This document shows, in pieces, positions 3,977 to 36,100 of a stretch of DNA of 37,197 bases. The notes under the pieces are model-generated. The model did no database searches, was not told where the DNA came from, and saw only the letters and a program-made list of their open reading frames with translations. This stretch comes from Lentisphaerota bacterium (lineage in GTDB: Bacteria; Verrucomicrobiota; Lentisphaeria; Victivallales; UBA1829). The position numbers and the translations under genes are program-made. The stretch lies in the NCBI GenBank assembly GCA_015061915.1, contig SUVR01000019.1, forward strand, positions 1-37,197, given 5' to 3'. Numbering within the stretch: position 1 is the stretch's first letter; each line of letters begins with the position of its first letter.

Positions 3977-4738
3977 TTACAACCTGCCGATCGTCATACC
4001 GCCATCCACGCCGATGACTTGTCCGGTGGAGTAGGCAAGCGCGCCGGAAGCGATTGCCGCCACCACTTTGCCGATGTCTTCGGGCTGTCCCCAGCGACGC
4101 TGCAGGGTCAGCCCCTCTCCGATCAACTTATCATATTTCGCCGTAACGGCACTGGTCATATCCGTGGCGATGATGCCGGGGCGGATCTCGTAAACCGCGA
4201 TCCCCGCTTCCGCCAGACGGACCGCCCACAGCTTGGTCCCCATGGAAACGCCCGCTTTGGAAAGACAGTATTCCCCGCGGCTGATACTCGCCACATCTGC
4301 CGAAACGGAACTGATATTGACAATGCAGCGGAACGGCGCAGGTTCTTTGGATTCCAACATCTTCTGCGCGACAAGCTGGGTCAGAAAGAAAGGTCCCTTC
4401 AGGTTGATCGTCATGACCCGGTCAAAACTTTCCTCACTCATCTCCAGAATGTCGGCACGAACCTCCGGGGCAACACCGGCGTTGTTCACCAGCATATCCA
4501 GCGAACCGAAGTCCGAACAGAAGCGGTCGATCAGCGCCGTGCGGTCCGATGTCTTGGAAATATCGCAGGAATAATATTGGAACGAGCCGGAAAAACGGCT
4601 CCGCAGCTCCGTCAGGAAGTCGGCAGCGACAGCCTCCGCTCCCCGCCCGCAAAAGCCGATGTTATGGCCCTGCTCCGCCAATGCACGCACAATCCCTGCC
4701 CCGATCCCCCGGGCACCGCCAGTTACAAGAACATTCAT
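3977..4738 (-). CDS. Short-chain dehydrogenase/reductase (SDR)
   Basis: A 253-residue classical SDR, NAD(P)-dependent and soluble. Visible motifs are TGGARGIG (residues 6-13, cofactor loop), LVNNAG, a serine-containing ISSVSA strand, the catalytic Tyr157-x3-Lys161 pair (YCLSK) and the RPG motif after it. Length and order match FabG-like and sugar or steroid dehydrogenases; the sequence alone does not tell the substrate. I chose the ATG at 4738 because AGGAG stands 10 bases upstream; the longer in-frame start at 4765 has no such site and would add nine atypical residues. It is the first gene of the operon, with a likely sigma-70 promoter at 4785-4812. With the OYE reductase and flavoprotein it suggests stepwise oxidation/reduction of a cyclic or hydroxylated compound (inference). 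Confidence 0.9.
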   Translation of the reverse strand: MNVLVTGGARGIGAGIVRALAEQGHNIGFCGRGAEAVAADFLTELRSRFSGSFQYYSCDISKTSDRTALIDRFCSDFGSLDMLVNNAGVAPEVRADILEMSEESFDRVMTINLKGPFFLTQLVAQKMLESKEPAPFRCIVNISSVSADVASISRGEYCLSKAGVSMGTKLWAVRLAEAGIAVYEIRPGIIATDMTSAVTAKYDKLIGEGLTLQRRWGQPEDIGKVVAAIASGALAYSTGQVIGVDGGMTIGRL

Positions 4739-4882: not shown

Positions 4883-5016
4883 GGGGCGGCTCAGGCGCAG
4901 CAGACCGCTGCGCACAACCGCATGAAGGGGCATGGCGCATCATGCGCCATGCCCCTTCATGTGCGGTTGCCGGGGTGTGACCGCCACGCGGTCACGCCCC
5001 GGTGCTGAGCCGCCCC
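4883..5016. repeat. Cloverleaf inverted-repeat element A
   Basis: A closing stem of 12 perfect pairs (4883-4894 with 5005-5016) encloses three hairpins that almost touch. The first is 4895-4913 (7 pairs, 5-base loop). The second is 4915-4969 (7 pairs, 2-base bulge, then 19 pairs to the tip). The third is 4970-5002 (14 positions, one of them T/G, which would pair as G-U in plus-strand RNA). Unpaired junction bases number only three. The right arm lies 5 bases beyond the stop codon of the von Willebrand gene. No T tract follows on the minus strand, so a plain intrinsic terminator is unlikely. See the matching element at 16612-16746. Confidence 0.85.
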
Positions 5017-5021
5017 GCCGC

Positions 5022-6962
5022 TTACTTCTGCGGCAGATCTTCTGCGGCTTTCACGAGGGTGAGGAATTCCGCCCGTTTGCCGTCGGGATCGGAACCGAGG
5101 GCTTTCTGAGCCCGGGCGCGGAGGTCCTTATAATTGGCGTTGCCCTTGTGTTCGCTGTTGCGGAGCAGCAGGCTGAACTCGGTGACGGCAGCCGCCCAGC
5201 GGATGTTATCTGTCGTCTCCGGCAGAGTCTTCAGGTCGAAGGTCAGCAGACGGCTGGGATCTTTTCCTTCCGGCTTCTGATAACGGAGCTTGAAGGTGAG
5301 GATGTCCTCGGATCCGGTGCTTTCCGTTTTCTTCTGATACTTGAGATCATCCACGCTGCCGAGATATTTCTTTTTCACATCGGCGGGGGCATCTGCCATG
5401 ATCAGTTCGTACACTGCGGTGACCTGATGACCGACACCGACTTCGCCGGCATCTTTCGTGTCATCGTTGAAGTCACGGGCGGCGAGTTTCCGCAGTTCGT
5501 ATCCGACCAGCCGGTATGCGGCGACTTTGGCGGGGTTGAACTCGATCTGGAACTTCACGTCTTTGGCGAGGGTGAACATCTTACCGGTCATTTCGTTGGT
5601 CATGACCCGTTTGGCTTCCCGGACGTTATCCAGGTAGAAATAGTTGCCGTTTCCTTTGTTGGCAAGCATTTTCAGTTTGCTGTCCTTGTAGTTCCCGCTG
5701 CCCACACCGAAGGCGCTCAGATAGATGGCGCTCTGCCGTTCTTTTTCCACCATCGTAACCAGTTCGGATTCGCTGCTGACACCCACATTGAAATCGCCAT
5801 CCGTGATCAGGACGATCCGGTTGTTGCCGCCTTTGATGAAGTGTTTATGCGCCAGTTTGTACGCTTCCACGATCCCTGCGCCGCCGGGGGTATAGCCGCC
5901 GGAACAGAGGGAGGAGATTTTTTTCTTGACAGCTTCTTTGTCTGCGCCGCTGCCGCCATCCATGAGGGTACTCACGCCGCCGCCATAGGTCACGAGGCTG
6001 ATCCGGTCATTTTCCCGGAGCTGATCTGCCAGAGTATTCATAGCTTCAATGACCATGGGGAAGACACTGAACATAGAGCCGGAGTTGTCGATGAGGAAAA
6101 CAAAGTTGGAAGGGGGCAGATCTTTTGTTTCCACGTCCTTTGCCTGCACGCCCACCAGCAGCAGTTTGCGGTCCGGGGACCAGGGGGCATCCATGCTTTC
6201 AAAGTTCACATGGAAGTCGGCATCGCCCTGCGGCGCTTTGTAGTCATAGGTAAAATAGTTGAGGAATTCTTCCGTGCGGACCGCATCTTTCGGCGGGAGG
6301 GTATTCTGCTGAAGGAGGAACCGACGCACGTTGGTGTAAGTGGCGGTATCCACATCCGCCCCGAAGGTGGAGAGCGGGGAGACAGTGGTGGCGGTGAAGC
6401 CGTTTTCCGTCAGGGACTTGTATTCCTCGGTGTTGAAGTTGACAGCAGGTGCGGGGATCCGGTCACTGACGCTGTAATATGCGGGGCTGTTCATGACCTT
6501 TCTTTCTTTTCTTTTGACGCCAGTCGCCATCACAGCCCTGCCCATGGCAGGAAGACTGTACTGCATAACAACGGGTTCGGGCGGCAGAGAATGTGCCGAT
6601 GCGCCATCTTCCGCCACAGCGATTTCAGCGAGAGCAACTGTTTTTTCCTGTTTGGATTCAATCGTTTGTACGGATTCCGGTGTATCTTTTGTGAGAGTGA
6701 TACCGGTACGCTGCGTTTCCTGCGTCTGCTCCTGCTGGAACGCAATAACCAGCCCGCAGCAGACAGCCACCGCAGCAGCCGTTGCCCAGACGAAACGCAG
6801 AAAGCGGGGAGCAGATTTTTTCTTTTCCGGCTTTTCTTCCGATTTCACTTTTGCGAAGAAATCTGCCTTGAACTGTTCCGTGGACTTGTAGTCCTGTTGG
6901 GGATTGGTGCGATTTTTCATGGTATCGAGAAGCTCATCAATTTTCGGTTCGTTGTTGTTCAT
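5022..6962 (-). CDS. Membrane-anchored von Willebrand factor A protein, DUF3520 (YfbK-like)
   Basis: A 646-residue protein. Residues 1-54 are charged and cytoplasmic; one transmembrane helix spans about 55-76 (FVWATAAAVAVCCGLVIAF), leaving the rest outside the cytoplasm. A von Willebrand N-terminal domain (about 165-270) is followed by the vWA domain, whose metal site DxSxS is Asp292-Ser294-Ser296, with the TDGDFNVG segment later. The C-terminal DUF3520 domain covers about 455-640. This arrangement matches E. coli YfbK and planctomycete/Bacteroidetes relatives, whose biochemical role is unclear; metal-dependent protein binding is expected. The start overlaps the sigma-factor stop (ATGA), with GGAGG 8 bases upstream, so the two are translated together. 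The short cytoplasmic tail plus helix resembles an anti-sigma factor layout, so it may hold the sigma factor at the membrane (inference). Confidence 0.9.
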   Translation of the reverse strand: MNNNEPKIDELLDTMKNRTNPQQDYKSTEQFKADFFAKVKSEEKPEKKKSAPRFLRFVWATAAAVAVCCGLVIAFQQEQTQETQRTGITLTKDTPESVQTIESKQEKTVALAEIAVAEDGASAHSLPPEPVVMQYSLPAMGRAVMATGVKRKERKVMNSPAYYSVSDRIPAPAVNFNTEEYKSLTENGFTATTVSPLSTFGADVDTATYTNVRRFLLQQNTLPPKDAVRTEEFLNYFTYDYKAPQGDADFHVNFESMDAPWSPDRKLLLVGVQAKDVETKDLPPSNFVFLIDNSGSMFSVFPMVIEAMNTLADQLRENDRISLVTYGGGVSTLMDGGSGADKEAVKKKISSLCSGGYTPGGAGIVEAYKLAHKHFIKGGNNRIVLITDGDFNVGVSSESELVTMVEKERQSAIYLSAFGVGSGNYKDSKLKMLANKGNGNYFYLDNVREAKRVMTNEMTGKMFTLAKDVKFQIEFNPAKVAAYRLVGYELRKLAARDFNDDTKDAGEVGVGHQVTAVYELIMADAPADVKKKYLGSVDDLKYQKKTESTGSEDILTFKLRYQKPEGKDPSRLLTFDLKTLPETTDNIRWAAAVTEFSLLLRNSEHKGNANYKDLRARAQKALGSDPDGKRAEFLTLVKAAEDLPQK

Positions 6963-7447
6963 GCCATCACCTCCAGTTTTTCTTTCAGGAGTTGTTTTGC
7001 TTTGTGGATACGCTGGTAGAGGGTGTTGACGGTGCAGCCGAGAATGGATGCGGCATCGTCCGAGCTGTAATCGCTCAAAAACCCAACGAGGATGGAGTCC
7101 CGATACAGTTCCGGCAGCTCCGCAATGGCGTCCGCCAGTGCATCCAGTTGTGCGTTATCCGTTGATGTATCAGCGGCTTTCTCCTCTGCATACGCCTTGA
7201 GTTTTTCCGCTTCCCGTTTCCGTCTCCGGATCCGGTCGCAGCACTGGTTCACTGTGATCCGGTAAACCCAAGTTGAAAGTTTCGCTCCGCCGCGGAACTG
7301 CTCAAATTTGTTCCATGCAGTCAAGAGCGCCTCCTGGACCGCTTCGTCCACTTCCGCCGGATCTCCGAGCAGCCGGTACGCCGCAGCCCGCAGCACGCCC
7401 AGCTCCTCCGAGATCAGGGAATCAAAGATCTCCTGTTTTGTTTTCAT
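6959..7447 (-). CDS. ECF-type RNA polymerase sigma factor
   Basis: A 162-residue sigma-70 family protein of the extracytoplasmic-function class. Region 2 covers about residues 10-80 (ending with STWVYRITVNQCCDRIRRRK, promoter melting and -10 contact). Region 4 covers about 108-157 (LPELYRDS... followed by a helix-turn-helix around 125-152 that reads the -35 box). Regions 1.1 and 3 are missing, as expected for ECF factors. ATG at 7447 has an AAAGGAAC site 7-8 bases upstream. Coupling by a 4-base overlap to a transmembrane vWA protein suggests that protein regulates it. I could not find a convincing ECF-type autoregulated promoter in the 117-base gap upstream. Confidence 0.93.
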   Translation of the reverse strand: MKTKQEIFDSLISEELGVLRAAAYRLLGDPAEVDEAVQEALLTAWNKFEQFRGGAKLSTWVYRITVNQCCDRIRRRKREAEKLKAYAEEKAADTSTDNAQLDALADAIAELPELYRDSILVGFLSDYSSDDAASILGCTVNTLYQRIHKAKQLLKEKLEVMA

Positions 7448-7564
7448 GTTCTTGTTCCTTTTGTTTTTTTCTGTACAGAATGAGTGTTTCTGACAGATAG
7501 GACGAAACTTACCGGCATTTTCTTATCGGTTTCCGAAAATTTTTTGTATTTTTTTGATTCACCC

Positions 7565-15013: not shown

Positions 15014-16582
15014 ATGGCAGACGAAAAACGCAATATTTTCGGCGGAAAAGAGGGATTCCATGCAGACGGGACCCGGAACATTTTTAACACGGAAAAACGG
15101 ATCAAACTGGGGATCTGGGGTCTGGGCCGCGGTGGCAGTTTTGTGGCGTGCGCAAAAGATCTGAATATCGATGTGGTCGCCGGATGCGATTTCAGCCCGT
15201 ACATCCGGGAAAAATTCTCAAAACATAATCCGGATGTGTTCGTAACGGACAACGAAGATGAATTCCTGAGCATGGATATCGATGCCGTGCTGGTGGCGAC
15301 ATTCTTCCCCTCCCATGTGGAACACTGCATCAAGGCACTGAACGCCGGAAAACACGTGATGTGCGAAGTCACATCCTTTATGAAGCCTTCGGACGGCGTC
15401 CGCCTGGTCGAAGCCGTGGAAAAGAGCGGAAAAGTTTACAATCTGCTGGAAAATTATCCGTTCGCAAAGAAAAATATGTTTGCCCGGAAGTTGTGGCAGG
15501 ACGGTCTGTTCGGAGAATTTGTCTATGCCGAATATGATTATCACCATGACTGCCGCACGCTCCAGTACACTTATGTGGACAGCACCCCGCTGGAAAACGG
15601 TTGGGAACTGCATAACTGGCGTTCCTGGCTGAACGGTCATTATTACAACACCCACTCCCTCGGTCCCGTTATGCAGATCACCGGTCTGCGCCCCGTGGAA
15701 GTTTCCGCCCCCCCGATTTCCGTGAAACAACCCGGCTGCATCCTGCCGGGAGGTCCCTGTCTTTCCGTAGTAAAGATGGAAAACGGCGGGATCATGCGGA
15801 ACCTGATGGGGGCGTCCAGCCACGACACTCACACCAGACGGATCTGGGGAAGTAAAGGCGCATTTGATTTCTCCGAAGCAGAAGAAAAGGTCTATTTCGG
15901 AGCCACCGGACACGGCAAAGGCTACAAAATCAAAACCGAATGGCCCGAACTGGGCGAACTCGCCGATACCATGGGCCACGGCGGCGGCGACTTCTGGGAA
16001 CTCTATTACTTCGCACGGGAAATCCTCACCGGCGAAAAAGCACCGTGGAATATCTACGCAGCGTGCGATGTGACCCTCGCCGGGATCATGTCCGTCCGCA
16101 GTCAGATGCAGGGCGGGATCCCCGTGGAAGTGCCGGATTTCCGCGATCCCGCAGTCCGGGAAAAATACCGGAACGATGACTTCATACAGGAACATTTCGA
16201 TCCGGAAACTTACCTTTTCCCCGAAGGTCATGATAAATCGATCACCGGCAAGTTCTCCAAAACGATGGCAGATCTCTCCAACGCATGGTGCAGAAACGGC
16301 GTCACCCTCGTCCGTCAGGTGTACGATGGTATGAAGATCTATCCTCTCCTCGCAGACGATGCCGGACGCTTCTCCGTGATCTGTGATGTTCAGCAGCTGA
16401 TCGCCGAAATCGATGATCTGGCAGAAACATACCGCACCGCAAAAGAAATCATCAACGCATACCCGGATTCCGTCGCAGCCGAACAGCTCCGCAGTATGCT
16501 GGAAATCGGCGAAGAAGAAAAAATCCTCTTCCCCGATGAAACCAAACAGGAACTGACCGACTGGCTGAAACAGGTCCGGTAA
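15014..16582 (+). CDS. Gfo/Idh/MocA-family protein, GH109-like
   Basis: A 522-residue protein. Residues 30-150 form a dinucleotide-binding Rossmann fold with GLGRGG (36-41). The lysine of the usual CEKP motif is not present: the position reads CEVTSF (117-122). YNTHSLGP (211-218) and GHGGGDF (321-327) resemble the active-site blocks of GH109 NAD-dependent N-acetylgalactosaminidases, which use bound NAD to eliminate and re-add across the glycosidic bond. Loss of the EKP lysine fits a hydrolase better than a dehydrogenase (inference). An unusual helical extension, about residues 415-522, goes beyond the normal 330-450. No signal peptide or twin-arginine motif is present, unlike many GH109 proteins. 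AAAGGA lies 8-13 bases before the ATG. It is 140 bases downstream of the fucosidase, perhaps with its own promoter, and ends at a strong terminator. Confidence 0.82.
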   Translation: MADEKRNIFGGKEGFHADGTRNIFNTEKRIKLGIWGLGRGGSFVACAKDLNIDVVAGCDFSPYIREKFSKHNPDVFVTDNEDEFLSMDIDAVLVATFFPSHVEHCIKALNAGKHVMCEVTSFMKPSDGVRLVEAVEKSGKVYNLLENYPFAKKNMFARKLWQDGLFGEFVYAEYDYHHDCRTLQYTYVDSTPLENGWELHNWRSWLNGHYYNTHSLGPVMQITGLRPVEVSAPPISVKQPGCILPGGPCLSVVKMENGGIMRNLMGASSHDTHTRRIWGSKGAFDFSEAEEKVYFGATGHGKGYKIKTEWPELGELADTMGHGGGDFWELYYFAREILTGEKAPWNIYAACDVTLAGIMSVRSQMQGGIPVEVPDFRDPAVREKYRNDDFIQEHFDPETYLFPEGHDKSITGKFSKTMADLSNAWCRNGVTLVRQVYDGMKIYPLLADDAGRFSVICDVQQLIAEIDDLAETYRTAKEIINAYPDSVAAEQLRSMLEIGEEEKILFPDETKQELTDWLKQVR

Positions 16583-16623
16583 CCATCAGGGAAAATACGC
16601 ACAGAACAACAGGCGCGGACGCT

Positions 16624-16660
16624 CCCCGTTCAGCGTTGAGCTGAACGGGGGGCTTTTTTT
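16624..16660 (+). terminator. Intrinsic terminator of the Gfo/Idh gene
   Basis: The stem CCCCGTTCAGC/GCTGAACGGGG (16624-16634 with 16640-16650, loop GTTGA) is followed by GGC and seven T residues (16654-16660). It begins 41 bases after the stop of the Gfo/Idh gene. Confidence 0.85.
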
Positions 16661-16690
16661 GCCCCGGCGGCACAGTGCCGCCGCCGGGGC

Positions 16691-16734
16691 AAAAAAAAGC
16701 GCGTCATCCGGGGCGTTCCCGCCCCGGATGACGC
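16691..16734 (-). terminator. Intrinsic terminator of the cation transporter gene
   Basis: A 14-pair GC-rich stem (16701-16714 with 16721-16734) is followed on the minus strand by GC and eight T residues (A run at 16691-16698). It lies 47 bases beyond the stop of the CDF gene. Confidence 0.82.
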
Positions 16735-16781
16735 TGCGTCCGCGCCCGTGTCTTCTGCGCTGATCCCGTCCCGATGCGCTA

Positions 16782-18101: not shown

Positions 18102-18157
18102 TTAAAGTAAATATAACATACAAAAAACAAACGCCTACGGGCAGCAAGGTGGAAAAT

Positions 18158-21100
18158 ATGAGTCAGAAGCAAAACAAGGTGGAGATCTTCAAACTGGAAG
18201 ATCGTGTGCTTTTTGAAGCAGGTGCAGTGATACAGGCAGCCGAAGCGGCAGCAGCAGATCAGGCGAACAACGATGCGGCAGCGGCAGATGCAGACGCGAC
18301 AGGCGATACAGACAGCACGGACAACGAAAGTGCGGAAGCGGCTCTCGCCCAAATTCCCGGAGTGGATTCTTTGGATGCTGTCGGTGACAGCATCCCTGCT
18401 GCAGCAGGGGGCGATGATGATGCGGAATCACCGGACGCCGTCGCGTTTGTCGATGCACCGGTCGCCTCTTCCGAAACTTCGGAACGGATCCTTGTTGTCC
18501 TGAACTCTTCTGTCGCCGATGCGGATTCTATCGTAAACGACCTGGGCGATAATGTGGAGGTCCTGCGCCTTGAAGCAGGCACCGATGCTCTTGACACGAT
18601 CAACGACTACCTTGACGAACACGCCGACACCAAATATTCCGCCATCCACCTTGTGTCCCACGGTTCTGAAGGCTATATCACGCTCAACGGCGAAAAGATC
18701 GACTCCACCACGATCAATCCCGCCGACTGGAAGGCTATCGGGGAACACCTGACCGATGATGCCGACATCCTTGTTTACGGTTGCGATACTGCCAAGTCCG
18801 ACGAAGGCAAAGCCCTTGTCCAGACCATCGCCAACCTGACGGGCGCAGACGTTGCCGCTTCCATCGACTCCACCGGCGCCAACGGCGACTGGGATTTGGA
18901 ATACCGTTCCGGTCTCATCGAAGCCGCCACGCTTGTTCCGGAATCCTACCGCTATGACCTCGCAGCGACCACCATCACGGTCAACACCCTGACGGATGTT
19001 GTTGATGCTGCGGATGGCGTTACCTCTCTCCGGGAAGCCATCACGGAAGCCAATACCAACGGCGGGGAATACACGATCGTCTTTGATCAGACGCTCGCCA
19101 AAAATGCCGATACGGACGGCAATGCAGAAAACGGCAACGACTCCTATGTGATCAAACTGGATGCCACACTCGGCACACTTAATCTTTCTCTGGAAGGTCT
19201 TGATCTGACCATTGACGGAAGTATTGGCACCGACCGGGTCACCATTGACGGCGGCAACAGTTTCTCGATCAAGGCAAGCGATGGTACAATTACCAATTCC
19301 AAGACAGGGATGCAACTTTTCAATATCACCAACAGTTCTGTGCTGTTGCAAAATTTTCAACTGCAACATGCGTATTCCGCCGGATTGGGCGGTGCGCTTT
19401 ATGTGGGAACAGGCGGCAATGTAACCGTATCTGATGTGCTTTTCTACGGCAACTACGCCAAGGGCGGCGGTTCGATTGCGCTGTCCGGTGGAACCCTCCT
19501 TGTGGAAAATTCTATTTTTGATTACAATGGTGCAACATATGCAGGATCAGGAAATGGCGGTGGCGGCGGCGGCTTCTATTCCTTGAGCGGAACAGCGACT
19601 TTCAGAAATACATATTTTACCAGAAACTCATCAGATGGAGGTGGATGGTTAAACTTCCAGGCAAGTGCCATGTTGGTGGCAGGTTCTGCAAGTCTGACGG
19701 TTGAAAACAGTACGATCTTCGGGAATTATCAGGGAGCGATCTCTTTGTTGAGTGGAGCAGGCAAAAAAGTCTTCATCAACTCCACCATTATCGGAAACGG
19801 TACAGACGGTAACGACTCCGCCATCTTTTCACCCGGTGGCAACTATACATTGCTGAATACCATTGTGGCAAACAACTGGAAAGATTTCGGCGATAACGGC
19901 AATTCCGGGACTCGCTTAATGCAGGGGGTCATTACAACGAATGTACATCTCAAATCCTCCACTGCATTTTCCGGCGATTACACAGTCATTACGAAAGAAC
20001 AATTGCTGACGATGCTTGATTCTGCCTGTATCAGTACGGATGGCAAAAATACAATTCTTCTGAATAAAGACGGTCAGATCGCACTCAACGGTTCCGGTGC
20101 GGCAGCCGGCGGAGGGGTTCTGGTGGCACAGTTGGCAGACGGCACTTATGTGGTTGCAAAAGATGGATACTGGCACAATCTGAACAACACCCGTTATCAG
20201 ATCGACGGTGCAGATGTGGCGTTCAATGCCGCCGACAGCGCCAACGGTTACGGTCTGGGGGCAACTGCCACGGTGTTCGATACGGATGCAAACGGAAACA
20301 GCCGTCTTGCCGGAGCCCAATACGGCGTGTTCAGTGCCGGTGCAGTTGCAGCAGACAGCATCCAGCAAGAGACCGTGCAGTCGCTTGTTGTCAACACACT
20401 GACAAGCGGCACCAATGCGTATGACCACAAGACATCGTTTGAAGAAGCCTATGCGTATGCCCAAACATTGGAAGGGGATCAGACCATTTCTTTCAGCAGC
20501 ACACTGCAGCCCAATACAGATACGGGTTATATCATTGCTCTTTCTCAGAAACTGACCCACAACAAAAGTACGCTCAACCTCACGATTGACGGCTCTATCG
20601 GAACGAAACAGGTGACCTTTGACGGCGGCGACAGCATAAAATTCATGACCGTTTCCGGAGCAACACTGACCCTGCAGGATCTTACGGTCCGCAATTTCTA
20701 TGATGGCTACGGGGCAATCACGGTCAGCAGCGGGAATCTGACATTGAACAATGTTGCTATGGAAGGCAATACCGCCAGTCATTGGGGCGGTGCAGTCAAG
20801 GTCGATGGCACATCTACTTTGATCGTTGACAACAGCAGTTTCCGCGACAATGACGGCAGCGGCTGGGGCGGTGCGATTTATGTGGAAGGCTCCGGCACCG
20901 GCACGCAGTTTACGATCAGCAACTCTCTCTTTGATAAAAACACAGCCACTTACGGCGGGGCGATCAGCATTTGGACGGGAGCGACCGGCACGATCTCCGG
21001 ATCCGTTTTCACTGGCAACATCACGGATGATGCCTCGAAAGCCTCTGTGCTTTATTCCAGCCAGCCGGTCTCGATCAGCAACAGCTCCTTTTCCGGTAAT

Positions 21101-24100
21101 ACGGGCGGTTATGTTATCAGCATGATGGGAAATGCCGCAGCCACGATCGAGAACAGTACCTTTGTCAACAATAAAAACGGCGTTCTTTCTGCCAAAAATG
21201 CTACGATCATCAACAGCACGATCGTCGGCAACACCGGCACCGCCGTTCAGTTATCGGCGGGCGGCAATATGTTGCTGCTTAATACACTGATCGGCAACAA
21301 TGAAAAGGACTTCGGTGCTGCAGCCGCCTCCACAGCCCATCTCTACTACACCCTGACCACTGCGGTAAAAGACACCACGGTGACACTGGATGGCGTGGGA
21401 CACAAAGAAATTGATTCCAACGCATTCATGCGTTTTATTCCGTTTGACAAATATGCCGCAGACGGCAGTTTACTGCTGGAAGCGGACGGCACTCTTGCGA
21501 TTATGCCGATCGGTGATGCTGCAAATGCCGGCACTCTGATCGGCAAAATCGGCAGTACCTGGTACTATGTTTCCAACGGGAAGTGGTACAGCACCGGCAG
21601 CACAGAAGCATATGCAGATTTCAACAAGGAAGCCGCCGGATACGGTCTCGGCGATACTGCCACACTTTACACCACCGGAGCCAATAAAGATGCCAACGGC
21701 AATGTGACCCGCATTTACGATAACGGTCTTTACAGTGTCGGTGCGTATGCGTTGGAAGCCGGCGTTTCCAGCGGCGATATCCCCAGTCTGGTCGTTACCA
21801 CCGAACAGGATGTTGTGAATGCAAACGATGGTTTGATCTCCCTGCGGGAAGCATTCGACCTCTTGAATACCCATAAAACATTTTTTGGTGAAACAACGAT
21901 TACCTTTGACGCCTCTCTCTCCGGGAAGGTCATCACTCTCTCTTCAAAACTGGGGGCGGTAACCACCGGAATGACCATCAACGGGGATATTGACGGCGAC
22001 GGCAATGCAGACATCACCATCAACGGCGGCGGGAAGTACCGGTTCTTTGACCTTTCCACGGCGGATGTGACCCTCACACTCAACGGACTGATCCTGCAGA
22101 ACGGTTATTCCGAAATGGCGGCAAAGACTGCCGGCGGCGTGATCAATCTGACTGCCGCCGGCGTGACGGTGAACCTGACCAACTCCACCGTGACCGGCAG
22201 CAAGAACACTGCACACGCTGCGGTCTTCTACATCTCTGCGGCGGGAACCACGGTCAATATGACGGACTCCGCTCTCAACAACAATACCTCCTTCTGGTCT
22301 GCTCCGGTTCTCTTCTCGAATAAGGCAAACACCACGGTTACGATCACCCGTTCCGAGTTCAACAACAACAAATCTTCCGATGCAGGCAATGCAACCGAAG
22401 ACGGTGGTGTGATCTACCTTGGATCAGGCGCACACAATTCAAAACTGACAATCACCGGCTCGACCTTTGACGGTAACAGTCTGGCAAAAAGTCCGGGCGC
22501 AGCGCTCTCGGTCATTAGTTCTCAGAATTCCGTGATCACCATCTCCAACAGCACATTCAGCAACAACAGTGCCGGTTCAAGCGGCGGTGCCATCTATATG
22601 CTGAATGCAACCGGGACGACGCTGGATATTGAAAACAGCACCTTCACCGGAAACAAGGCAAATGGAACCACCGTTAAGACCGATAATTCCGGTACCGGCG
22701 GCGGTGCGATCTATGTCCGGAACAGCGGGGCTGTAACGATCGAAGACAGCACATTCACCGGGAACAGCAGCAAAGCCTGCGGCGGTGCCATTCTGGTGCG
22801 TGGCGGGTCTCTGACGCTGACCGATACCGATTTCACCAACAATACGGCACAGTACGGCGGTGCGATCTCCAATTATGATACTGTCGCCTCCACCATCACC
22901 ATTACCGGCGGCACGTATTCCGGGAACAGTGCCCCGAAAAACAGCGGCACATTCCATATCAATTCCGGAGCAAATGCGACGGTAAAAATGACCGGTATAA
23001 CGGTTGAAAACAGTTCCTCCGATTCTCTTGGCGGTGCCATTGGGGTCTACGGGGGGTCTCTGACGCTGACGGATGCCATCTTTACCAATAACAGCTCCAA
23101 TACCAACGGCGGTGCGATCGGTGTCAGCAGCGGCACGCTCGATATCAGCGGCAGTACTTTCCAGGACAACAGTGCAGCAAACAATGGTGGTGCGATCTAT
23201 ATCAGCAGCGGCTCGACCGGCACAGTCGATATCCGCAACAGCACCTTCACGAACAACAGCACAACAACGAACCAGAGTGTTGCCAATACGCTGGTGGGCG
23301 GCGGTGCGCTCTATATCGGCACCGGCACGGTCAATATCAGCGACAGTACCTTTACCGGAAACCATGCAGACGGAGCAAACGGGGAATACGCCGGCGGCGG
23401 TGCGGTCGGGCTTTTTGCCGGAACAATGAATCTCACCGGCACCAATACCTTCACCGGAAACTATGCCGTAGAAGGACACGGCGGCGCCATCTTCAATCAG
23501 AAAGGCACGCTCAATATCAGCGGTACCAACACCTTTACCGGCAACAAAGCAGGCTACGGCGGAACCGCAACAGATTATCGCGGCAACGGCGGTGCCATCT
23601 TCCTTGACGGGAACGCAACTGCGATCCTGACCGTTAGCGGCAACACGCTCTTTGAAGAGAACAACGCCCGCAACTGGGGTGGCGCCATTGCCCTGTATGC
23701 CAACAGCATCAGCTACATTGACAGTGCCACATTCAGAAACAACACCACAAGCAGAAGCAGCGGCAGTGCTTTCTATGTTGCAGGGAATCTGACGATCACA
23801 AATTCCACCTTTACCGGAAACTATATCAACGGCACAACCGATGTAAACGGGCTTTCCGGTCATTCCGTGCTTGATGTAAGTGCCAATGGCAGACTTTTTA
23901 TTGTCAACTCCACGTTCCTCAACAACAGCAATGCGGCGGAAACGCTCCCCACGACTTATGATGTTTACAACCGGGGTGGAACCGCGAATGCAGTTTATCT
24001 GATCAACTCCATCTACGATCACGGAGTCGATACAAAGACCAAAGGCTACGGAAACGTAAAGGCTGTTGCCGGAACGAACATTGACGCCACCGCAAAGACC

Positions 24101-27100
24101 GACGGCAATCAGACTTATTTCCTGCCGACCGGAGAAGACACCGTGATCGGCGGAAAACCGGTTACTGTCAGCGGAAAAACACTGACCTACAACGGAACAA
24201 ACATTGCAATCAGCAACCTGACCGCCGACCAGCAAACCCTGCTTGCGGGCGTGATCGGGAAAGATCAGCTCGGTGCTGACCGGGCTCTCGGCACGACGCC
24301 CTACTACTCCGTGGGCGCGGTCAACGGGATCCTGCTGGCTCCGGAAAATGTCACCCTCAAATGGACCATCGGGGACTACACCTACAACGGCGCAGATCAG
24401 ACCGTGACCGTTCAGGTGGTCAACGCGGAAAATGATACCATTGTCCACGACACCATCACCGTCACGCTGAAGTACAACGACGGCACCTCCGATCTCGATG
24501 CCATGCTCAATGCGGGCAGCTACACCGTGACCGTGGACGAAACGGCACTTCTGGCGGCTCTCGGCTACAATCAGACGCTGGTGGCTGCTGCCGATGCCCT
24601 GACAAAGACCGTCACCGTCAAACAGAAAACCCTGAATGTGACGGCGGACAACAAGGAAATGTTCAAGGATGGCGTCCTGCCGGAACTGACCTACACGGTC
24701 AAGGATGGCGATCTGCTGGATGGCGATGATGCCGGATTCACCGGCGAACTGAAATCCACCGCAGACGGCACCGTGGAAGGCGATTTTGCCATCGAAGCGG
24801 GTACTCTTACCGTCGGCAATACCAACTATATAATGAATTATACAGCCGGTACGATCACGGTCGTGGATGCAAACGGCGTCCTTGACCCGTCCCGTCTGAT
24901 CGTTGACACCGCAAGCGATGATCCGGATTCGGGCAACACACTCCGGGAAGCGCTGGAATATGCGGCAGACTTCGGCGGCGATCTGACGATCACCTTCGCA
25001 GCGGATACCTTCGCAGCTGATACCAAGTTGACCCTGAATTCCGAACTGGCGATCTCCCTCAATCTGGAAGGAACCCTCACCATCGACGGTTCCTATGTTG
25101 ACACGGACGGCAACACCGGCAGGATCACGATCGACAACACCGGCAAGACGTTCCGCATCCTTTCCTATACAGATACGGATACCACCTCCGCTGCCGGTCT
25201 GACGATCAACAATCTGGAAATCCTCGCTGGATCGACTACTTCAAGCATGACTGGTATGGGTATTTACTCCCGTAATGTCACCCTGACGCTGGATAACTTC
25301 CGTCTCGCCAATGCAGTTTCCAAGTACGGGGACGGTGCCGGGATCAACCACTCCGGCGGCGATGTTTCGATCACCGATTCTGAATTCTATGGAAACGGAC
25401 ATAAAAACGGCAACGGCTACAATGCCAACGGCGGTGCCATTTACCTCGGCAGTGTTGGAAAATTGAACATCAACAACACTCTCTTTGAAGCGAATTGTAT
25501 TGAAAACAAGTCCGGATCGACCCACGGCGGTGCCATCTATCTGAGCTCTACAACGGTGGTAACGATCAACGACTCCCAGTTCATTTCCAACTACACGAAT
25601 TCAAGCGGTGGGGCAATTTACGGGGGGAGCGGTTCTGTACTGAATATCAGTAATACCCTGTTTGAGAACAACGTTGCCGGTGCGAGCGGCGGTGCTCTCT
25701 ATACGATGAAGGGATATGTCAATGTTTCGGATTCCACCTTTGTCGAAAACAAAGCCGGTACCGGTGGTGCGATTTCCACCTGGTATTCCTTCAATTCTTC
25801 CAACAGCGTATTCCGGGACAATTATGCTTACGGTACCGGTTCAACGCTTGTCAAGGATTCTGCAGGAAAGGAACTGTTTACGATTACGCATTCCGATTCC
25901 GGTCACGGCGGTGCTGTTCACCTCCATTCCCCCAGCGGTGATAAATCTAATATTTACAATACCACCTTCTACGGGAACAGTGCAGCCGGGCGCGGCGGGG
26001 CATTGTTTATAAAATCCATCGGATACGGTCACAGCATCGATATTGTGAACACCACCATTGCGGGCAACACTGCCGGGGTGGCGAGCGGCGGCATCCATTA
26101 CTGGGCACAGACAGCAGACCATATTCTGATCGCAAACAGCGTCATCCTCGGCAACAAAGCCGGAACGGCGGATTATGACATTGCGTTCGCACAGAATGCC
26201 CACAACACCAACAACTACATCTACTCCGTCGCCTCTACCATCGGCGTGGTGAAACATGAAGGATTTACCTCAGGTTATGTGTTCGACAGAGCATCCGTTC
26301 AGGCACCGATCACGGACAAGTACGGAAGCACCATCGGAGAGATCTGGACCGTCACGGAACAGGCCGACGGCACCTTTGCCCAGACACTGACCACCCGCGA
26401 TACGCTTCCGGTCGCTGACTTGAAGAAGAGTGTCTTCGGCACGGAAACGCCCACCCTCGCCTCTGACGGAAAGAGCGTGGTGATGATGGCATCCAAAGAC
26501 TACGTGCTGAACGGTGTCAACACCGCATGGACGGCAGACGGGATCCAGCCACTGTATCAGGATGCAAACGGCGACTGGTACTATGTGAGCGGCACGAAAT
26601 ACACCGGTACGCCCACGGTCATCGATAAGGACATCAACGGTGCGGCGCGTCCCAAAGACATCAACGGCACGAACTACTATGTAAAAGGTTCCTCCACGCT
26701 GGTTCAGGAATACTCCAGTCTGGTGGTGGATACGCTGGATGACGTGATCAACCCCTTCGACTTCAAGACATCGCTGCGGGAAGCAGTCGCCTTTGCCAAT
26801 GCGGGCGGCGGCGGCACAATCACCTTCTCCACAGATGTGGATTGGAGCGCCACGGATAAGACCATTACGCTGGATGCAAAGGACGCAGAAGGCAACTTCC
26901 TCGGTCAGATCGCCATCACCGCCGCCATCACCATCGACGGCAGCCTGATGCGCGGCACCTTTGACTACGGTGTGGTGACCATCAAGGTCCCGGTGACCTA
27001 CGGGGAATCGGTACTGGATACCACGCTGACCGCCAGCAACTTCCGTATTTTCAACATCACAGCAACGACCACGCTCAAGAACATGATCCTTCAGGGCGGC

Positions 27101-30100
27101 AAAGTCACCGGCAACGGCGGTGCGGTCTATGCGTCCAAGAGTCTGACGCTGGATACGGTACAGGTCATGGATTCCTACTCCTCCAGCAAGGGTGGCGGTG
27201 TTTACAGTGATGGATACACGCGCGCCGAAAACAGTGTCTTTATCAACAATACCGCCGGAGACTACGGCGGCGGTCTCGGCGGCTACAACAACGACATCCG
27301 GGTACTCAACACCCTGTTCTACGGCAACCGGGCAAAAAACGGTGCTGCGGTCATGAATTGGAGCTGGACTCTGCAATTCATCAACAGCATCTCTACGGAG
27401 AATTATGCAAGCGAAGGAGCTTCGATCCAGAACAATCAGGGGGCGATCCATCTGCTGAACTCCGTGGCGGTGGGCGCTGCGAACGGTTACGATGTCAAGT
27501 TCGACAACGCCTACAACAAAGCGATGCGCTTCTACAACTCCGTTTACGGCAATATCACACAGGGAGTACCGGCAGATGGTTCCGCACTTTACAACTATGT
27601 TGACAGCAACTCCTGTATTGCCACAAAAGCAATGACCTTCGGCGACAACACGATCTATCAGGACTCCAAGGGGTTCTATGCGATCGACATTCTGGATCAG
27701 GGCGCCGCATCCTGGGGCGGCAGGATCTTCTCGGAAGTTCATTTGTCCGATAACATGAAAAATGTCAACAACAACCATAAAATGGTTGGCTATTTCGATG
27801 AAAACGGCTACTTCCGCAATGTTGACGGTCTGCTGGTCGCATTCTCCGGGGCAAACAATAACAATACCTCGACCGTGCCTTATTACAGCAATGATGACGG
27901 CGTCACCTGGTACACAGATACCGCCTGCACCAAAGAGTTTTACGATGGCTACATGGCGGGAACCAATTCAACCACCATCGTCCGGCAGAATATGTTCCTC
28001 ATGACCCGCAACGGCATCGAACAGGTCTTCCCCGAAAAAGGCGCTTTCACATACAGCACCCTGACCGGTCTGACCGATGAGATCTATGCCACCTGGTTCA
28101 CCGACTGGAAGTATGACCGCAACGGTGCCGACCGCACGGCGGAAAAATATCTCGCCATGGGCACCACGGTCCATGACAACACCCTGGACCGCCTGACCGA
28201 TCTGGAAAACAACCTGACCGTCACCTCCGAAGGGACGGCGATCGATGCCGCCGACGGCGTGATCACCCTGAACGAAGCACTGCTGGTGGCGGGCAAGCTC
28301 GGCACGGCAGAGATCACCTTCGGGGACAATGTTTCCGAATTTGTCATTAATCAGCAAATCACGATCAATTACGATCTGACCATCACTGCGGCGGAAGGAC
28401 AGAACATTACGTTCCGTACTGCCGCACAGGGCGTGGCAGATGACGGCACTTACGATTCCGCTGCAGCCAATATCAACCGGATCTTCCGCCTGTTCCACGA
28501 TGGCTCCCTCACCTTGAACAACCTGACTCTTTCCGGTGGGAAAGTTAACTACGGTGCGATCATCTACGGTGAAAATGCCTCCAGCGTCACGATCAACAAC
28601 AGTACGCTGGAAAACGGCTACGCCACCAGTGAAGGCGGTGCCATCTACCTGACACAGGCATCCAGTCTCCAGATCAACGATTCTGTGTTCCGCAACAACC
28701 ATGCGGACTCCGGCGGCGCCATCGCCCTCCGGGCGGATAGAGATATTCTCATTGAAAACACGCTCTTTGAAAAGAACACTGCCTCCACCGGCGGCGCCAT
28801 CAGGCTGGCACAGAGCAACAGCGGCACCTATATCTACCGCCCCCACATGATCGTGAATGACTCCGTCTTCCGCGAAAACGGCAAGAGTAACTGGGGCTCC
28901 AAAGGCGGCGGTGCCATCCGGGTAACTGACGGCACTCTGGCAGAACTCCACCGCTGCTTCCTGGTCGGGAACACGGTTACAGCCGGCAGTTGGTACGGCA
29001 CAAACGGCGGTGCTCTCAGCGCAACCGGCAATGCATCGATCCTGCTGGAATCCAGCACCGTCATCAACAGCCAGAACGGGGCGATCTCCTCGGACGGCGG
29101 GAAAGTCACGGTCATCAACAGTACGATCATGAACAACGGCGGCAGAGCTTTCTTCCAGGGTGGTGCGGACCAGATCACCGTGGTCAACTCCATTGTGGCG
29201 CTGAACGGACATGATTTCTGTCAGCGCAACCACGCCGGAGCAGATTACAAGTTCAATCTGAAGAATGTCATCACCACCGGTACACTCGCCAGCGCCGGTA
29301 TGGTCTTCGACACGGATCAGGTCACGGTCCTTTCCGCTGCCGACTTCAAGGCGCTGCTGGAAGATATCTGCCTCGATGAAGCGGGCAAAGTGATCCTGAA
29401 CCCGATCCTCGGCAACACATACACCTTCGATCCGGCGAGCATCGCTGCTCAGAACGGCGTACTGGTCGGCAAGATCGGCAATGCGTACTACTACGCAAAG
29501 AACGGTCTCTGGTACAGCGTGGCGGACGGCTCCGTCTATCAGATCGACGACGGCACCGGAACCATGGTGGATGTGGCATATACCAACGATGCCGCAACCA
29601 ACTACGGTCTCGGCACAGCGGAAGGCACTGCCGTTTACACCTTCGATCAGAACGGCAACGAACGTTTCATGCTCAACGGCAAACTGACCGTCGGCGTGTC
29701 CAACGCACGGCAGGAATCGTTGATCGTGACCGATGCCACCGATGAAAACAACCCCTACAACAACAAGATCACCCTCCGGGAAGCGATCGACCTCGCCAAC
29801 CGGACCGCTGACGCACAGGAAGTCACCTTCGACAGCAACGTGTTCAAGGACACCGCCACCGAATATGTGATCGACCTGGAATCCACGCTGAAGATCACGG
29901 ATGCCGTTACCATCAGCAACACCACCGGCGCAAAGATCGTTCTGGACGGCGGCAACACCGTCACCATTGATGCAACGACCGGCGCTGTCACATACGGCGA
30001 AGACGGCGTCCGTATCATGGACATCGCAGCCAATGCGGCGACCACGATCGACGGACTCACCTTCCGCAACGGCTTCGGTTCCAGTGATCTGCGTACCACG

Positions 30101-33100
30101 GCAAAAGGTCAGACCTACGGCGGCGGCGGTGCCATTCTCACCGCATCTGCTCTGACCGTGAAGAACTCCACCTTTGAATTCAACTACTATAAGAATCAGG
30201 CGGATAATCCCTACTCCTCCGGCGGCGGCGCCATCTTTGCCAATGCGGATCTGACCGTCGAAAACAGCACGTTCAGTCAGAACGGCGTCAGTCTGAAGAG
30301 CATTTACGCCTATAAGGGCGGCAGTGCTATCTTTGCTCAGACCGGCAGCTTCACCCTCACCGGGTCCACCATCAAAGACCACACCACCGATCCGGCAGTT
30401 TATGCGTACAACACCACCGGATTGAACATTGATCAGACCACCTTCACCAACAACAAACGCGGAGCCCTCTCCCTTTCCTACACCAGCGGTGCGGATCAGA
30501 AGATCTCCAACTCCATCTTCACCGGAAACGCCCACACCAACGGTGCTTCCGGCGCCATCAACGCCCAAGTCTCCTCCGGAACGCTGACCATCAGCAACAC
30601 CACATTCGGCGGGACCGGGGACGGCGAAGGCAACCGGAACTCCGGCGGCAACGGCGGCGGCGCAGTTACTCTCAACAGCGGAAACAAAGCTCAGATCGTA
30701 GTCACGGACAGCAAGTTTATCAACAACTATCAGAAAGACGGTTACGGCGGCGGTGCGGCGTACATTCTCGGCAATGTGACTTTCCGGAACACCCTTTTCC
30801 AGGGCAACAGCACCGGAGCCACCGGCGGCGCCATCAGCGTCATGAACGGAAATCCCGTTATTGAAAACTGTACCTTTGTCAGCAACTCGGCGAAGGACGG
30901 CGGTGCCATCAACATCAACTCCGTCTATGGCGTGGCAAATACGGTCAACATTGTCAACAGCACCTTCCTGAACAACTCCGCCACCGGTTCCGGGAACACG
31001 ATCATGGTTCTGGATCCCTCCAGCACAAACGAAGCAGGCCGGAAGCCCATGACGGTGAACCTGATCAACTCCACCATCCTTTCGGATGATGCGGACAGCG
31101 CTGCGATCCAGTTGGGGTACAACAATGTGACTCTGAATATGCTGAACAGCATTGTTGCCTCCGCAACCGCCCTCAACGCCGTTGCCGGAAGTACCGTCAA
31201 TGCTCATTACAACGTGACGGGCGCGGTTTCTCTGGCATCCGGTACGACCCTGAACGGCACTGCCCTCACCGCTGATACGACCGAACTTGGCGGAACCAAC
31301 AAAACGGCAGAGGCGGCGGACATCTTCAAGTCCACCACCCTCACCGCGCAGAACACGCTGGAGATCAGCAAGGAAGGCGCAGCAACCATCGCCGGTACCC
31401 TGGTCGGTCAGAAGGATGGTGCGTTCTACTATCGGGACGGCAGCACATGGAAGAAAGTCGGCGGAACCGATGCGGATAATCTGGCGTTCGATGCTGCCGA
31501 TACCGTCACCTACGGGCTCACGGACGGCACGATCCTCACCCTCGCCCAGAACGGAGTCAGCCGTGTCCTCACGCTCACTGCATTCAACGCCGGCGCTCAC
31601 GCACTGGAACCGACGCCCCTCTCCAGCGTGGTCAACTCCCTCGAAGACTCCATCAACTACTTCGATGACAAGATCACTCTCCGGGAAGCGATCGCCAACT
31701 TCGGCAGCGTCTCCTTCTCCGATCAGGTCGATTGGAGTCTGACCGATAAGACCATCGTCCTGACGATGGGACAGCTCTACCATTACGGTAATTTCTCGCT
31801 CAACGGCGCCCTCTCCTTCAATGGCACTGATCAGGGCAGAGTTACCGTCAAGGTCCCTGTCACTTACGCAGAAGCACAGGCAGACAGTACCCTTACGATC
31901 AGCAATCACCGGGCATTCCAGTTCGCTGGTGGCGATGTAAAATGGAGTCATGTTCAGTTGAGCAACATCATCGTGAAAGGCGGTTATGCCGATAACGGCG
32001 GTGCGATCCAATGTTCACCGAATCTCACCCTCACCAATGTAACGGTCGCTGACTCAAAAGGCTGGGCGGGCGGCGGAATTGCTGCCAGTCATAATCTCGT
32101 TCTGCAGAACAGTTATATCGTCAACAACTTTGCCACTGCCTCCGGCGGTGGAATCTATCTTACGAAAGGTTCATCCAGTAGTTACGGTCATCCGAAGATT
32201 GAAAACTCCGTTATTGCCGGAAACACTTCCGGCTCTGCAGGAGCAGGACTCTATATTTCGTGCAATTCATCCGGCATTACCACGCAGATCATCAATACGA
32301 CAATCGCCGGTAACACGGGAAAATCTGCATTCTATCAGGGAAATCAGTCAAGCACCTTGCAGGTGATCAACTCCATTATCGCAGGGAACACGGTTACTGA
32401 TACAGATATTGTCATTGCACCGGGTTCCGGTAAAACGGTAACGGCATCCCTGATCAGTTCTGTTTATGGCACGATCAGCCATACCTCAACAACGCTCACG
32501 GAAAGCGCGAACCTCTCCGGCGTTACTTACGCGGATGTCTTCGGCACCAATACCCTGACTGAAAAGGCGGGAGGAACTTACGAACTGGCTGTCGTTCCCA
32601 CCGGAAAAGCAGCGGTCACCGGGACTCTGGTCGCCTCGGTCGTTACCGGAAATGCACTTGGCGGAACGGTCAACAAGGATTACTACTACCTTGACACCGC
32701 CACCGGCAAGTGGATGCTGAACGGTGCCGATGCCGGTTATACCTATGATCCCACCGCCGCCAACTATGGGCTGGGCGTGAAAAATGCCGTGATCCTCGGT
32801 ACCGCCCTGAACCGGGATGCCGAGGGCAACTTTGTCTCCCGTCTGGATGCGGCTCCTTACAGCACCTTCACTGCCGGGGCGTATGCCCTCACGGCGGAAA
32901 CTACCGGAACTGTCGTAAAAGTCGGTACCGATAACGGCTTCTTCAACCCGTTTGATGGCGAGATCACCTTCCGCGATGCTGCCACTTATGCGGGCGTTGG
33001 CGCCCTCCCCAGCGAAGTCACCTTCGATGACGCCCTCACGGAAGTGGTCCTGACCGATACCCTCACCATCAGCAAGGATCTGACCATCACGGATGACAAT

Positions 33101-36100
33101 ATGAAGATCTCCGGCGCTGCGCTCGCAGTCGCAGAAAGCGTCACCCTCACCGTCAGCTCCGGCAGCAAGTTCGAGATCACGGAAGCCGTCAACAACGGCA
33201 CGATCGACAACAAGGGCGCTCTCACTCTGGGAACTCTCTCCGGCACCGGTGCTTTTGTCAACAACGGTACTGCCACTGTCACCGGAAACCTGACGCAGGC
33301 GAATGTGACCAACAACCAGTCCATGACCGTCAGCGGCAACTATGAGACCACGGACAACACGGACAACGCCACCGGCGCGGAACTCACCGTCTCCGGCACC
33401 CTCACCACGAAAGATCTGGGCAACGAAGGCACCCTCAAAGCAACGGGCAACATCGCGGTAACGGATCATCTGGAAAATACCGGGACCCTCACCGCTTCGG
33501 CGGCATTCTCTGCGGCGACCACCGACAACTCCGGTTCTCTTGCGGTCGGCGGCGACTTCTCCGGCGGTGCGGTCAACAACACCGGAAGCATGACCCTCTC
33601 CGGCACAAACAACACCGCCACCGATGCGACCAAACTGGGTAACGTGACCTACGACGGCGCAACCGCCCAGCAGGTCATCGCCGGTACATACGCCGCCCTG
33701 ATCCTCTCCGGTGCAGGCGCAAAGACCGCCACCGGAAACGTCACGGCAAACAGCGTCAAGAACGAATCTGAAACCACGGTCAACGGCAACCTTTCCTCCA
33801 TCGGAACGGTTGATAACGATGCAAATCTGACTGTCAACGGCAACTACTCCGCCGACACCACGGATAACAGCTCCGACCTCAAGGTCACCGGCACTTACAC
33901 TGCCGACACCACCACCAACAGCGGCACGCTGGATGTGAACGGCAACTTTGCGGGCGGCACGGTGGATAACACCGGCAGCATGACCCTTGCGGGCGAAACA
34001 AACTCCGGTACCGGTACGCTGGGCAATGTGACTTACGACGGCGCAGATCAGACTGTTATCACCGGAACCTACGGCAACCTGACCATCAACTCCACCGGCA
34101 AGGCGTCCGCTACGGGCAATGTCGTTGCCAACGGCGACCTCGTCAACACCGCAGAGCTGACGGTTGACGGCAATGTTGCAGCGGCAAGTATCACCACCTC
34201 CGGCGATACAGAAGTCACCGGCAATCTGACGGCAGACAGCGGCGATATTGAGAGCACGGCGGCTCTGACCGTCGGCGGCAACGTCGTTGGTGGCAACATC
34301 ACCACCTCCGGCGAAACGGAAGTCACCGGCAGCATCATCGCCACCGGCGACATCGAAAGCACGGGCGCTCTCACGGTCGGCGGCAGTGTGGAAGCGGACA
34401 ACAACATCACCACTTCCGGTGTCACGAAGATCACCAACAACCTCACCGCAAACAGCGGCGACATCAAGAGTACAAATGAACTCACGGTCGGCGGCGATGT
34501 GAAAGCGGAAGATATCACCACTTCCGGCAAAACGGAAGTTACCGGCGACATCCTCGCAACCGAGGATCTTGAAAGCGCTGCAGCTCTGACCGTCGGCGGA
34601 AATGCGAAAGCGTACGGCGACATCGCCATCGGCGCCGAAACCGAAATCTCCGGAGATATGACAGCCGGTGACATGATCATTAACTGGACTGATGGCAACT
34701 TGAGTGTCGGCGGTTCGGCGGAAGCTCAGCAGCTTGTCAATTACGGCGAAATGGAAGTCACCGGCGATGTCACGCTCAACAGTGATATCGTTGCTTACGC
34801 AAAACTGACCGCTTACGGTTCGATGAAAGTCGGTGGCGACGTGGAAGTGGAAAGTGTTGCAAACTTCGATGCGTTGGAAATTGCAGGTGACCTGACCGCT
34901 ACTGATAACATTTACAACGCGAAAAAATTGACCGTCGGCGGCGATTACTCCGCTGCCTCCACGAACAACGACGAGACCCTGACCGTCGGCGGCAATTTCG
35001 CTGGTGGCACGGTGACCAATACCGGTGCGATGACGCTCTCCGGCGCATCCAACACCGCCAATGCGGGCAGCACCCTGGGCGATGTGACCTATGACGGCAC
35101 CACCGATCAGGAAGTGATCGCGGGCACGTACGAAGATCTGGTCATCTCCACCACCGGTAAGGCGACCGCCAACGGCGACATCTCTGCGGTAACGGTCAAG
35201 AATGATGCTGAAACGGCGATCACGGGCAATCTGACCGCCACGGGCAACATCACCAGCAACGGCGACATGGATGTGACCGGCAACCTGACCACCACGGGCG
35301 ACCTCGCGAGTACGGCTGCCCTCACGGTCGGCGGCAATGCCTCTGCAAACAATGCGACCCTCTCCGGCGACACGGCGATCACGGGCGACCTGACTGCAAC
35401 GGGCGATCTCGCAAGCACGGCTGCCCTCACGGTCGGCGGCAATGCCTCTGCAAACAATGCGACCCTCTCCGGCGACACGGCGATCACGGGCGACCTGATC
35501 GCCACCGGCACGGTCGATTCCGATGCGGCTCTGACCGTCGGCGGCAACCTCACCGCAGACACCGCAGACAACAGCTCCGCTCTCACGGTCGGCGGCACCT
35601 TCACCGCCAATACCACCAACAACAGCGGCACGCTGGATGCGGAAGGTGATCTGAATGCGGGCGCACTCGCCAACAGCGGAAGTATCTCCGTCGCAGGCGC
35701 TTTTGCCACAACCAGTGCCGATCTCGGCGCGGTGGAATACGACGGCACGGCAGCACAGAACGTGGTCGAAGGTACGTACTCCGATCTGTCTCTGACCGGC
35801 GGCGACAAGTCCCTTGCGGGCGCTGTCACCGTGACCGACAGCCTGACAGCCGATGCCAATATCGACACCGCCGGACAGGATCTGACCATCAGCGGCGACG
35901 TTGCCGGAACCGGTACGATTTCCACCACAACTGACTCCGGAACCGTCACTTACGACGGCACGGCGGATCAGAACATCCTCGCGGGCGCGTACAATAATCT
36001 TGCACTCGCCAACGGCACCAAGACCTTGAACAGCGCCAATACCACCACGGTCAACGACACCTTTACCGCCAACGGTACCACGCTCCAGAGCGATGCGGCA

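Follow-up and report, generated by a model that had tools for sequence, protein, structure and literature searches.

In the genome of a gut bacterium of the Lentisphaerota, dozens of stretches at gene ends appear to share one four-armed cloverleaf fold without sharing their letters, and the majority resemble two-way stop signals. Two of them, elements A and B, lie in the window (the whole stretch of DNA that was analysed, 37,197 nt of contig SUVR01000019.1), and judging from sequence and predicted folding we consider it fairly probable (a probability of a little below 0.6) that both are members of a dispersed, lineage-specific family of cloverleafs, in which most members would be compound terminators and the dyad would be kept at the DNA level. 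The family goes beyond the first-pass annotation of element A in that most members carry paired intrinsic terminators, that it occurs in one genus only in 61 genomes, and that its pairing is nearly pure Watson-Crick.

The outer stem of element A (4883–4894 paired with 5005–5016; 5' arm GGGGCGGCTCAG) is perfect, with 12/12 pairs, and encloses hairpin 1 (4895–4913; 19 nt, 7 pairs, 5-nt loop), hairpin 2 (4915–4969; 55 nt, 25 pairs, 3-nt loop) and hairpin 3 (4970–5002; 33 nt, 15 pairs, one of which is G-U on the plus strand), none of these parts being assigned to a strand. Only three junction bases (4914, 5003 and 5004) are unpaired in the plus-strand fold. This is the architecture that the first-pass annotation had described, down to the single mismatch that turns into a G-U pair on the plus strand. 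The fold is very stable on both strands (plus: MFE -122.5 kcal/mol, z -12.8, 0/200 shuffles folding as well; minus: MFE -117.7 kcal/mol, z -12.7, 0/200 shuffles reaching this value), and the element is confirmed as real. The outer pairing reaches weakly to 4879 on the 5' side and to 5021 on the 3' side, where it adjoins the stop codon at 5022 of a minus-strand vWA/YfbK-like gene (5022–6962; vWA and YfbK_C domains), whose 3' end thus abuts the element. The next gene downstream on the minus strand encodes a short-chain dehydrogenase (SDR; 3977–4738), and element A is situated about 140 nt upstream of its called start; the location proposed earlier, between the 3' end of the vWA gene and the promoter region of the next operon, is therefore correct when read on the minus strand, according to our own gene calls. 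A sigma-70 family gene (6959–7447; region 2 and region 4_2 domains) lies directly upstream of the vWA/YfbK-like gene.

Comparison of element A with Rfam yielded no family at the gathering score and 12 sub-threshold matches only (top score: the mir-3622 model, 30.8 vs 78 bits gathering; sbcD RNA: 26.9 vs 40 bits), in agreement with the earlier view of a four-way-junction element of no nameable kind. A DNA search of its own genome with element A returned the element itself and chance-level short matches only; its junction-near motif is GGGCGGC, and it has no strong sequence relative. The reported lack of a U tract also holds, as runs of five T or A are absent from the element. It fails the hairpin-plus-T terminator rule on both strands and is therefore not classed as a bidirectional intrinsic terminator; with no tract at all, the terminator reading is weak for this particular member.

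Element B (16609–16749, no strand assigned) exhibits the same architecture as element A with a different sequence, and it does possess T/A tracts. Its hairpin 1 (16621–16653, plus strand) is followed by a T tract and is a predicted intrinsic terminator for the plus-strand gene ending at 16582, while hairpin 3 (16701–16734, minus strand), with a minus-strand T tract after it, is a predicted intrinsic terminator for the minus-strand gene ending at 16782. The base of hairpin 2 (16654–16697, no strand assigned) is formed by the T tract at 16654–16660 paired with the A tract at 16691–16697. Element B passes the rule of a GC hairpin plus T tract on each strand. Elsewhere in the window, our gene caller placed one giant reading frame on the plus strand (18149–37195, about 19 kb), which runs to the contig end.

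The chance-level matches from the DNA search with element A included one pair (C4:37271 and 37380) that turned out to be the outer stem of a third cloverleaf. Since a cloverleaf had emerged from such weak DNA matches, a structure detector was written, which folds sites where hairpins lie side by side and records any closed multiloop, whatever its number of arms. It was applied to 836,973 bases (about one third of the genome), i.e. to the window and 40 stretches of about 20 kb spread over the contigs, some of which cover early matches. The detector identified 28 elements, 28/28 with exactly three arms, and no element in 41/41 stretches after a first-order shuffle of each. The first 20 stretches had earlier been scanned by a plain sliding fold, which identified 11 multiloops; two of these, with a two-arm frame, resolve into three-armed elements. 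The unselected set of 30 comprises the 28 detector elements, L051:1756 (from the sliding fold) and L062:7217 (seen in part or whole in both scans). By extrapolation, the genome would carry about 90 cloverleafs.

When the same sequence (836,973 bases) was searched with a covariance model built from element B alone (R1), 37 matches reached E 0.1 or better; most elements were matched on both strands, and element A scored 42.2 bits (E 4.3e-5). Standard pairs fill 96.2% of the 1917 cells in the resulting alignment, vs 42–49% in slid structures, and 60/60 pairs change on both sides somewhere; as the model shaped this alignment and many elements appear in it twice, we take these figures as support rather than proof. 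The second model, R2, gave 72 matches at no fewer than 43 distinct places of the genome (150 of 1162 candidates scored). The full set (n=59) combines the unselected 30 with 29 elements chosen through R2 and for this reason leans towards element B; all 59/59 are three-armed.

The cloverleafs are 105–192 nt long (median 143), with an outer stem of 8–31 pairs (median 16) and 0–10 unpaired junction bases (median 2; n=59 throughout). In 33/59 of them the T tract that opens hairpin 2 pairs with the A tract at its end, so that one strand carries a terminator-like hairpin 1 plus T tract and the other a terminator-like hairpin 3 plus T tract; the paired tracts beside hairpins 1 and 3 would thus place two opposed intrinsic terminators in one fold. 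In some other elements a single arm is itself an A-hairpin-T terminator. According to a simple hairpin-plus-T rule, applied with 10 nt of flank included, 45/59 elements pass in both directions (31/35 of those between convergent genes) and 8/59 in neither. Tracts are missing from 11/59, element A included, and eight of these belong to the unselected 30 (A, L048, L053, L058:1772, L088, L098:2780, L098:8082 and L102). A separate terminator for one neighbour stands beside L048, L053 and L058:1772, and L098:8082 has terminator matches on both sides; none was found beside A, L088, L098:2780 and L102.

Genes around the elements were called with our own simple hexamer gene caller. Convergent neighbours flank 17 of the 28 two-neighbour elements from the unselected 30, vs 86/599 gene pairs, and the nearest stop codon is mostly less than 40 nt from the element. 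If gaps of at least 30 nt are considered, 17/52 convergent ones hold a cloverleaf, vs 10/276 others (Fisher 5e-9). The complete set shows 35 convergent, 20 tandem and 2 divergent locations, with 2 elements at an edge; the exceptions to gene-end placement are L098:8082, inside a predicted gene, and L099:17138 and L218:3773, between divergent genes. The remaining 35 convergent gaps contain simple terminators both ways (27), one way (5) or none (3), which suggests that the cloverleafs occupy places where bidirectional simple terminators would otherwise stand. On the preferred reading, RNA polymerase approaching in either direction would transcribe a GC hairpin and then a U tract and would halt there, and the element would in this way insulate convergent genes. 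More tentatively, the members without tracts, such as element A, might be U-less 3'-end barriers for one gene.

The same placement would be expected if the element were a site of DNA rather than RNA function, i.e. a four-way junction, extruded or single-stranded, bound between converging units by a protein acting on junctions or topology (gyrase, RuvA-like or HU). The constant feature of the family is indeed the set of three tight arms, with their median of 2 unpaired bases, and not the tracts; the pairing is almost purely Watson-Crick; and a role in supercoiling has been proposed for REP/BIME elements (PMC3733652, in excerpt). We nevertheless regard such a binding site as improbable, as it has no known binding partner and leaves the T tracts right behind the hairpins unexplained, and as the same kinds of sites are filled by simple terminators.

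What would keep the pairing so regular? G-U pairs make up 11/1083 of the outer-stem pairs and 50/2557 of the arm pairs of the cloverleafs (1–2%), vs 40/365 in 35 tandem (11%) and 14/219 in 19 convergent simple terminators from the same stretches, which had been selected with a fold rule and may include some chance cases. This near absence of G-U suggests that the pairing is kept at the DNA level. Convergent use of both strands would also disfavour G-U, but the tandem elements are low too (27/1220 on the sense vs 15/1207 on the antisense strand); the small sense-strand excess hints at some RNA-level selection. It can also be counted for a structured RNA 3' end, in which the cloverleaf would be transcribed whole and protect or process the mRNA, together with the very strong fold on both strands, the stop codons adjoining the elements and the existence of tract-less members such as A, which this idea would suit. 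We find it very improbable, given that G-U is far rarer than in the simple terminators of the same genome and that most transcripts should stop at the first U tract, with the fold still incomplete.

The upkeep of the dyad can be followed in G001, a genus-mate of our genome (72% complete, 350 contigs; 110 reciprocal best hits with a median of 94% amino-acid identity in the sequence compared). G001 carries at least 16 elements, of which 12/16 stand beside the orthologue of a gene of our genome that has an element, 1/16 lies where our own stretch is cut, and 3/16 are without a match in the sequence compared. A thirteenth orthologous pair (L225/L113) was placed by synteny; its G001 copy received no detector call. 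The orthologous elements with their flanks are 82–96% identical, and over the 13 pairs of elements changes on both sides affect 23/736 base pairs, vs 2.1 by shuffling (maximum 8 in 2000); for the outer stem only, the figures are 8/208 vs 0.54 (maximum 4). Unpaired positions differ at 56/236. In two pairs whole arms have been rewritten into different hairpins: hairpins 1 and 3 in L222/L205, and the tip of hairpin 2 together with hairpin 3 in L235/L207. The first-pass annotation had predicted that covarying copies in many intergenic gaps would mark a structured family, and that an absence of copies, or copies with pairing lost, would speak against it; with 59 three-armed elements in this genome, at least 16 in the genus-mate and 13 compensated orthologous pairs, the copies exist and their pairing is kept. 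Orthologues of A and B were not found in G001, where the matching contigs end before either site, and another contig ends inside the orthologue of L099:7048.

Taken together, the near absence of G-U, the paired changes and the rewritten arms suggest that the whole dyad, outer stem included, would be kept at the DNA level by template switching (an arm being copied onto an arm at replication), by selection for the four-way junction, or by both. Template switching is a known route to DNA-level upkeep of palindromes (PMC8794818, in excerpt). Loss of SbcCD was considered as a cause of palindrome persistence and rejected, since SbcD scores above the cut-off in both members of the genus; loss of Rho was rejected likewise, as Rho is present in both.

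Could the family be a mobile or formerly mobile miniature palindrome (MITE- or REP/BIME-like), spread to gene 3' ends, with the outer stem as its terminal inverted repeat and the terminators as passengers or co-opted parts? The motif GGCGCRG occurs near the junction in 26/59 outer stems, vs 2.0 expected by shuffling (15/30 in the unselected set), and outside this motif the stems differ in sequence. At E 1e-4 or better 52/1711 pairs of elements are alike, and the likeness between L212:5158 and L226:3865 (different contigs, 75% alike) stops about 10 nt outside the element; the confinement of the family to one genus would also be in line with mobility. MITEs and mitochondrial hairpin elements are small dispersed foldback DNAs with a terminal inverted repeat; unlike them, the cloverleafs have sites shared between species, with no transposase or target duplication identified. 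Wherever checked, sites are occupied alike in both species, including the unselected site L098:18650 / C294, and no empty site was found among the orthologous junctions compared, which are few in a sample that leans towards occupied sites of our genome. Furthermore, the likeness of element B and L062:7217, which are related, comes with a duplicated neighbouring gene. No vehicle for spread was found: the Y1 transposase family (PF01797) has one partial match in our genome and none in G001, so that RAYT-driven spread is not supported. We therefore consider a mobile origin unlikely. These sequences would be explained best by descent from a common ancestor, the copies having diverged through paired changes and the exchange of arms. 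Two cloverleafs 3.3 kb apart (L211:3928–4113 and 7418–7558; 86% alike) represent a local duplication.

The comparison with G001 revealed some further features. Next to one of our cloverleafs about 1.1 kb (L098:18778–19921) is absent from G001, whose sequence resumes at 19922 of ours; either DNA was inserted beside the element or G001 has lost it. A second palindromic repeat (L098:19806–19904, i.e. G000:C25:169806–169904) of about 95 nt has a conserved sequence and, by eye, three small separate hairpins, with copies at G001:C129:250–343 (84%), G001:C347:82–182 (77%) and L094:9404–9494 of our genome (76%). The G001 contigs C192 (end of L339) and C15 (end of L117) break inside cloverleafs, both ends matching halves of elements of our genome, and four of the elements in G001 are no more than 140 nt from the start of a contig; cloverleaf folds may fragment assemblies.

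Within the genomes searched, the family has so far turned up in only one genus of gut Lentisphaerae. R2 has matches in 2/61 genomes, namely our own and G001, and none in 34 other genomes from the family or in 25 from the order; across 288 genomes of the phylum our own is the sole match, a weak negative result as only 11 candidates were scored per genome. R2 gave 0 matches in 28 of 80 loci from named relatives. The detector, applied to 764 kb from eight relatives outside the genus, made two marginal calls (-0.59 and -0.60 kcal/nt), and the one in L155 resembles coding sequence by eye. A neighbouring protein has its named relatives in Lentisphaerae/Lentisphaeria MAGs, several of them from ruminant gut, with at most 74% identity (records of our own genome were possibly left out). 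Such a family is not described in the literature found, judged on titles and abstract openings.

Among known systems, the cloverleafs resemble bidirectional intrinsic (Rho-independent) terminators in standing between convergent genes with a GC hairpin and T tract usable on both strands, and compensatory evolution has been described for the terminators of Bacillus cereus (PMC5381666, in excerpt). They differ in the three hairpins and long outer stem present in all copies, in the pairing between the tracts of two separate terminators, in their tract-less members and in the scarcity of G-U. Like REP/BIME elements, they are palindromes scattered over the genome at gene 3' ends, in convergent and tandem arrangements (PMC3733652, in excerpt). 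REPs are 20–40 nt long, with a tag and sequence families, whereas the much longer cloverleafs are mostly unlike in sequence; PMC3733652 (in excerpt) notes frequent G-T pairs in REP stems, which are rare in the cloverleafs. Neither the conserved palindrome of 20–40 nt nor the intact associated RAYT (Y1) transposase that marks REP/BIME was found, the search for the latter covering our genome and G001. Hairpin-cluster terminators share with the cloverleafs the location of hairpins after stop codons, often without a U tract, but their hairpin number falls off exponentially (PMC8355165, in excerpt), while the cloverleafs always have three within a closing stem; a term search of the PMC8355165 text returned no cloverleaf, multiloop, convergent or bidirectional case.

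An efficient stop at the first U tract would leave the outer stem idle in RNA, so termination leaves the invariant part of the element unexplained: the purpose of the fixed three arms and the outer stem is not explained by the termination reading. Or perhaps the cloverleafs represent a category of element defined by shape, i.e. a closed four-way junction with exactly three perfect arms, held to perfect Watson-Crick pairing at the DNA level by arm-to-arm copying at replication, subject to turnover of whole hairpins between species and used as the standard insulator of convergent genes in the genus? We put this forward only tentatively, as somewhat doubtful. If the main reading is true, the genus would possess a repeat family that is recognised by its fold alone and escapes repeat searches by sequence, and a type of terminator in which a single closed junction accommodates two opposed stop signals. 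Dozens of copies in two species, with orthologous pairs, would also provide a natural set in which template switching can be weighed against slow compensatory substitution as the source of palindrome perfection, and which bears on why the four-way junction should be invariant.
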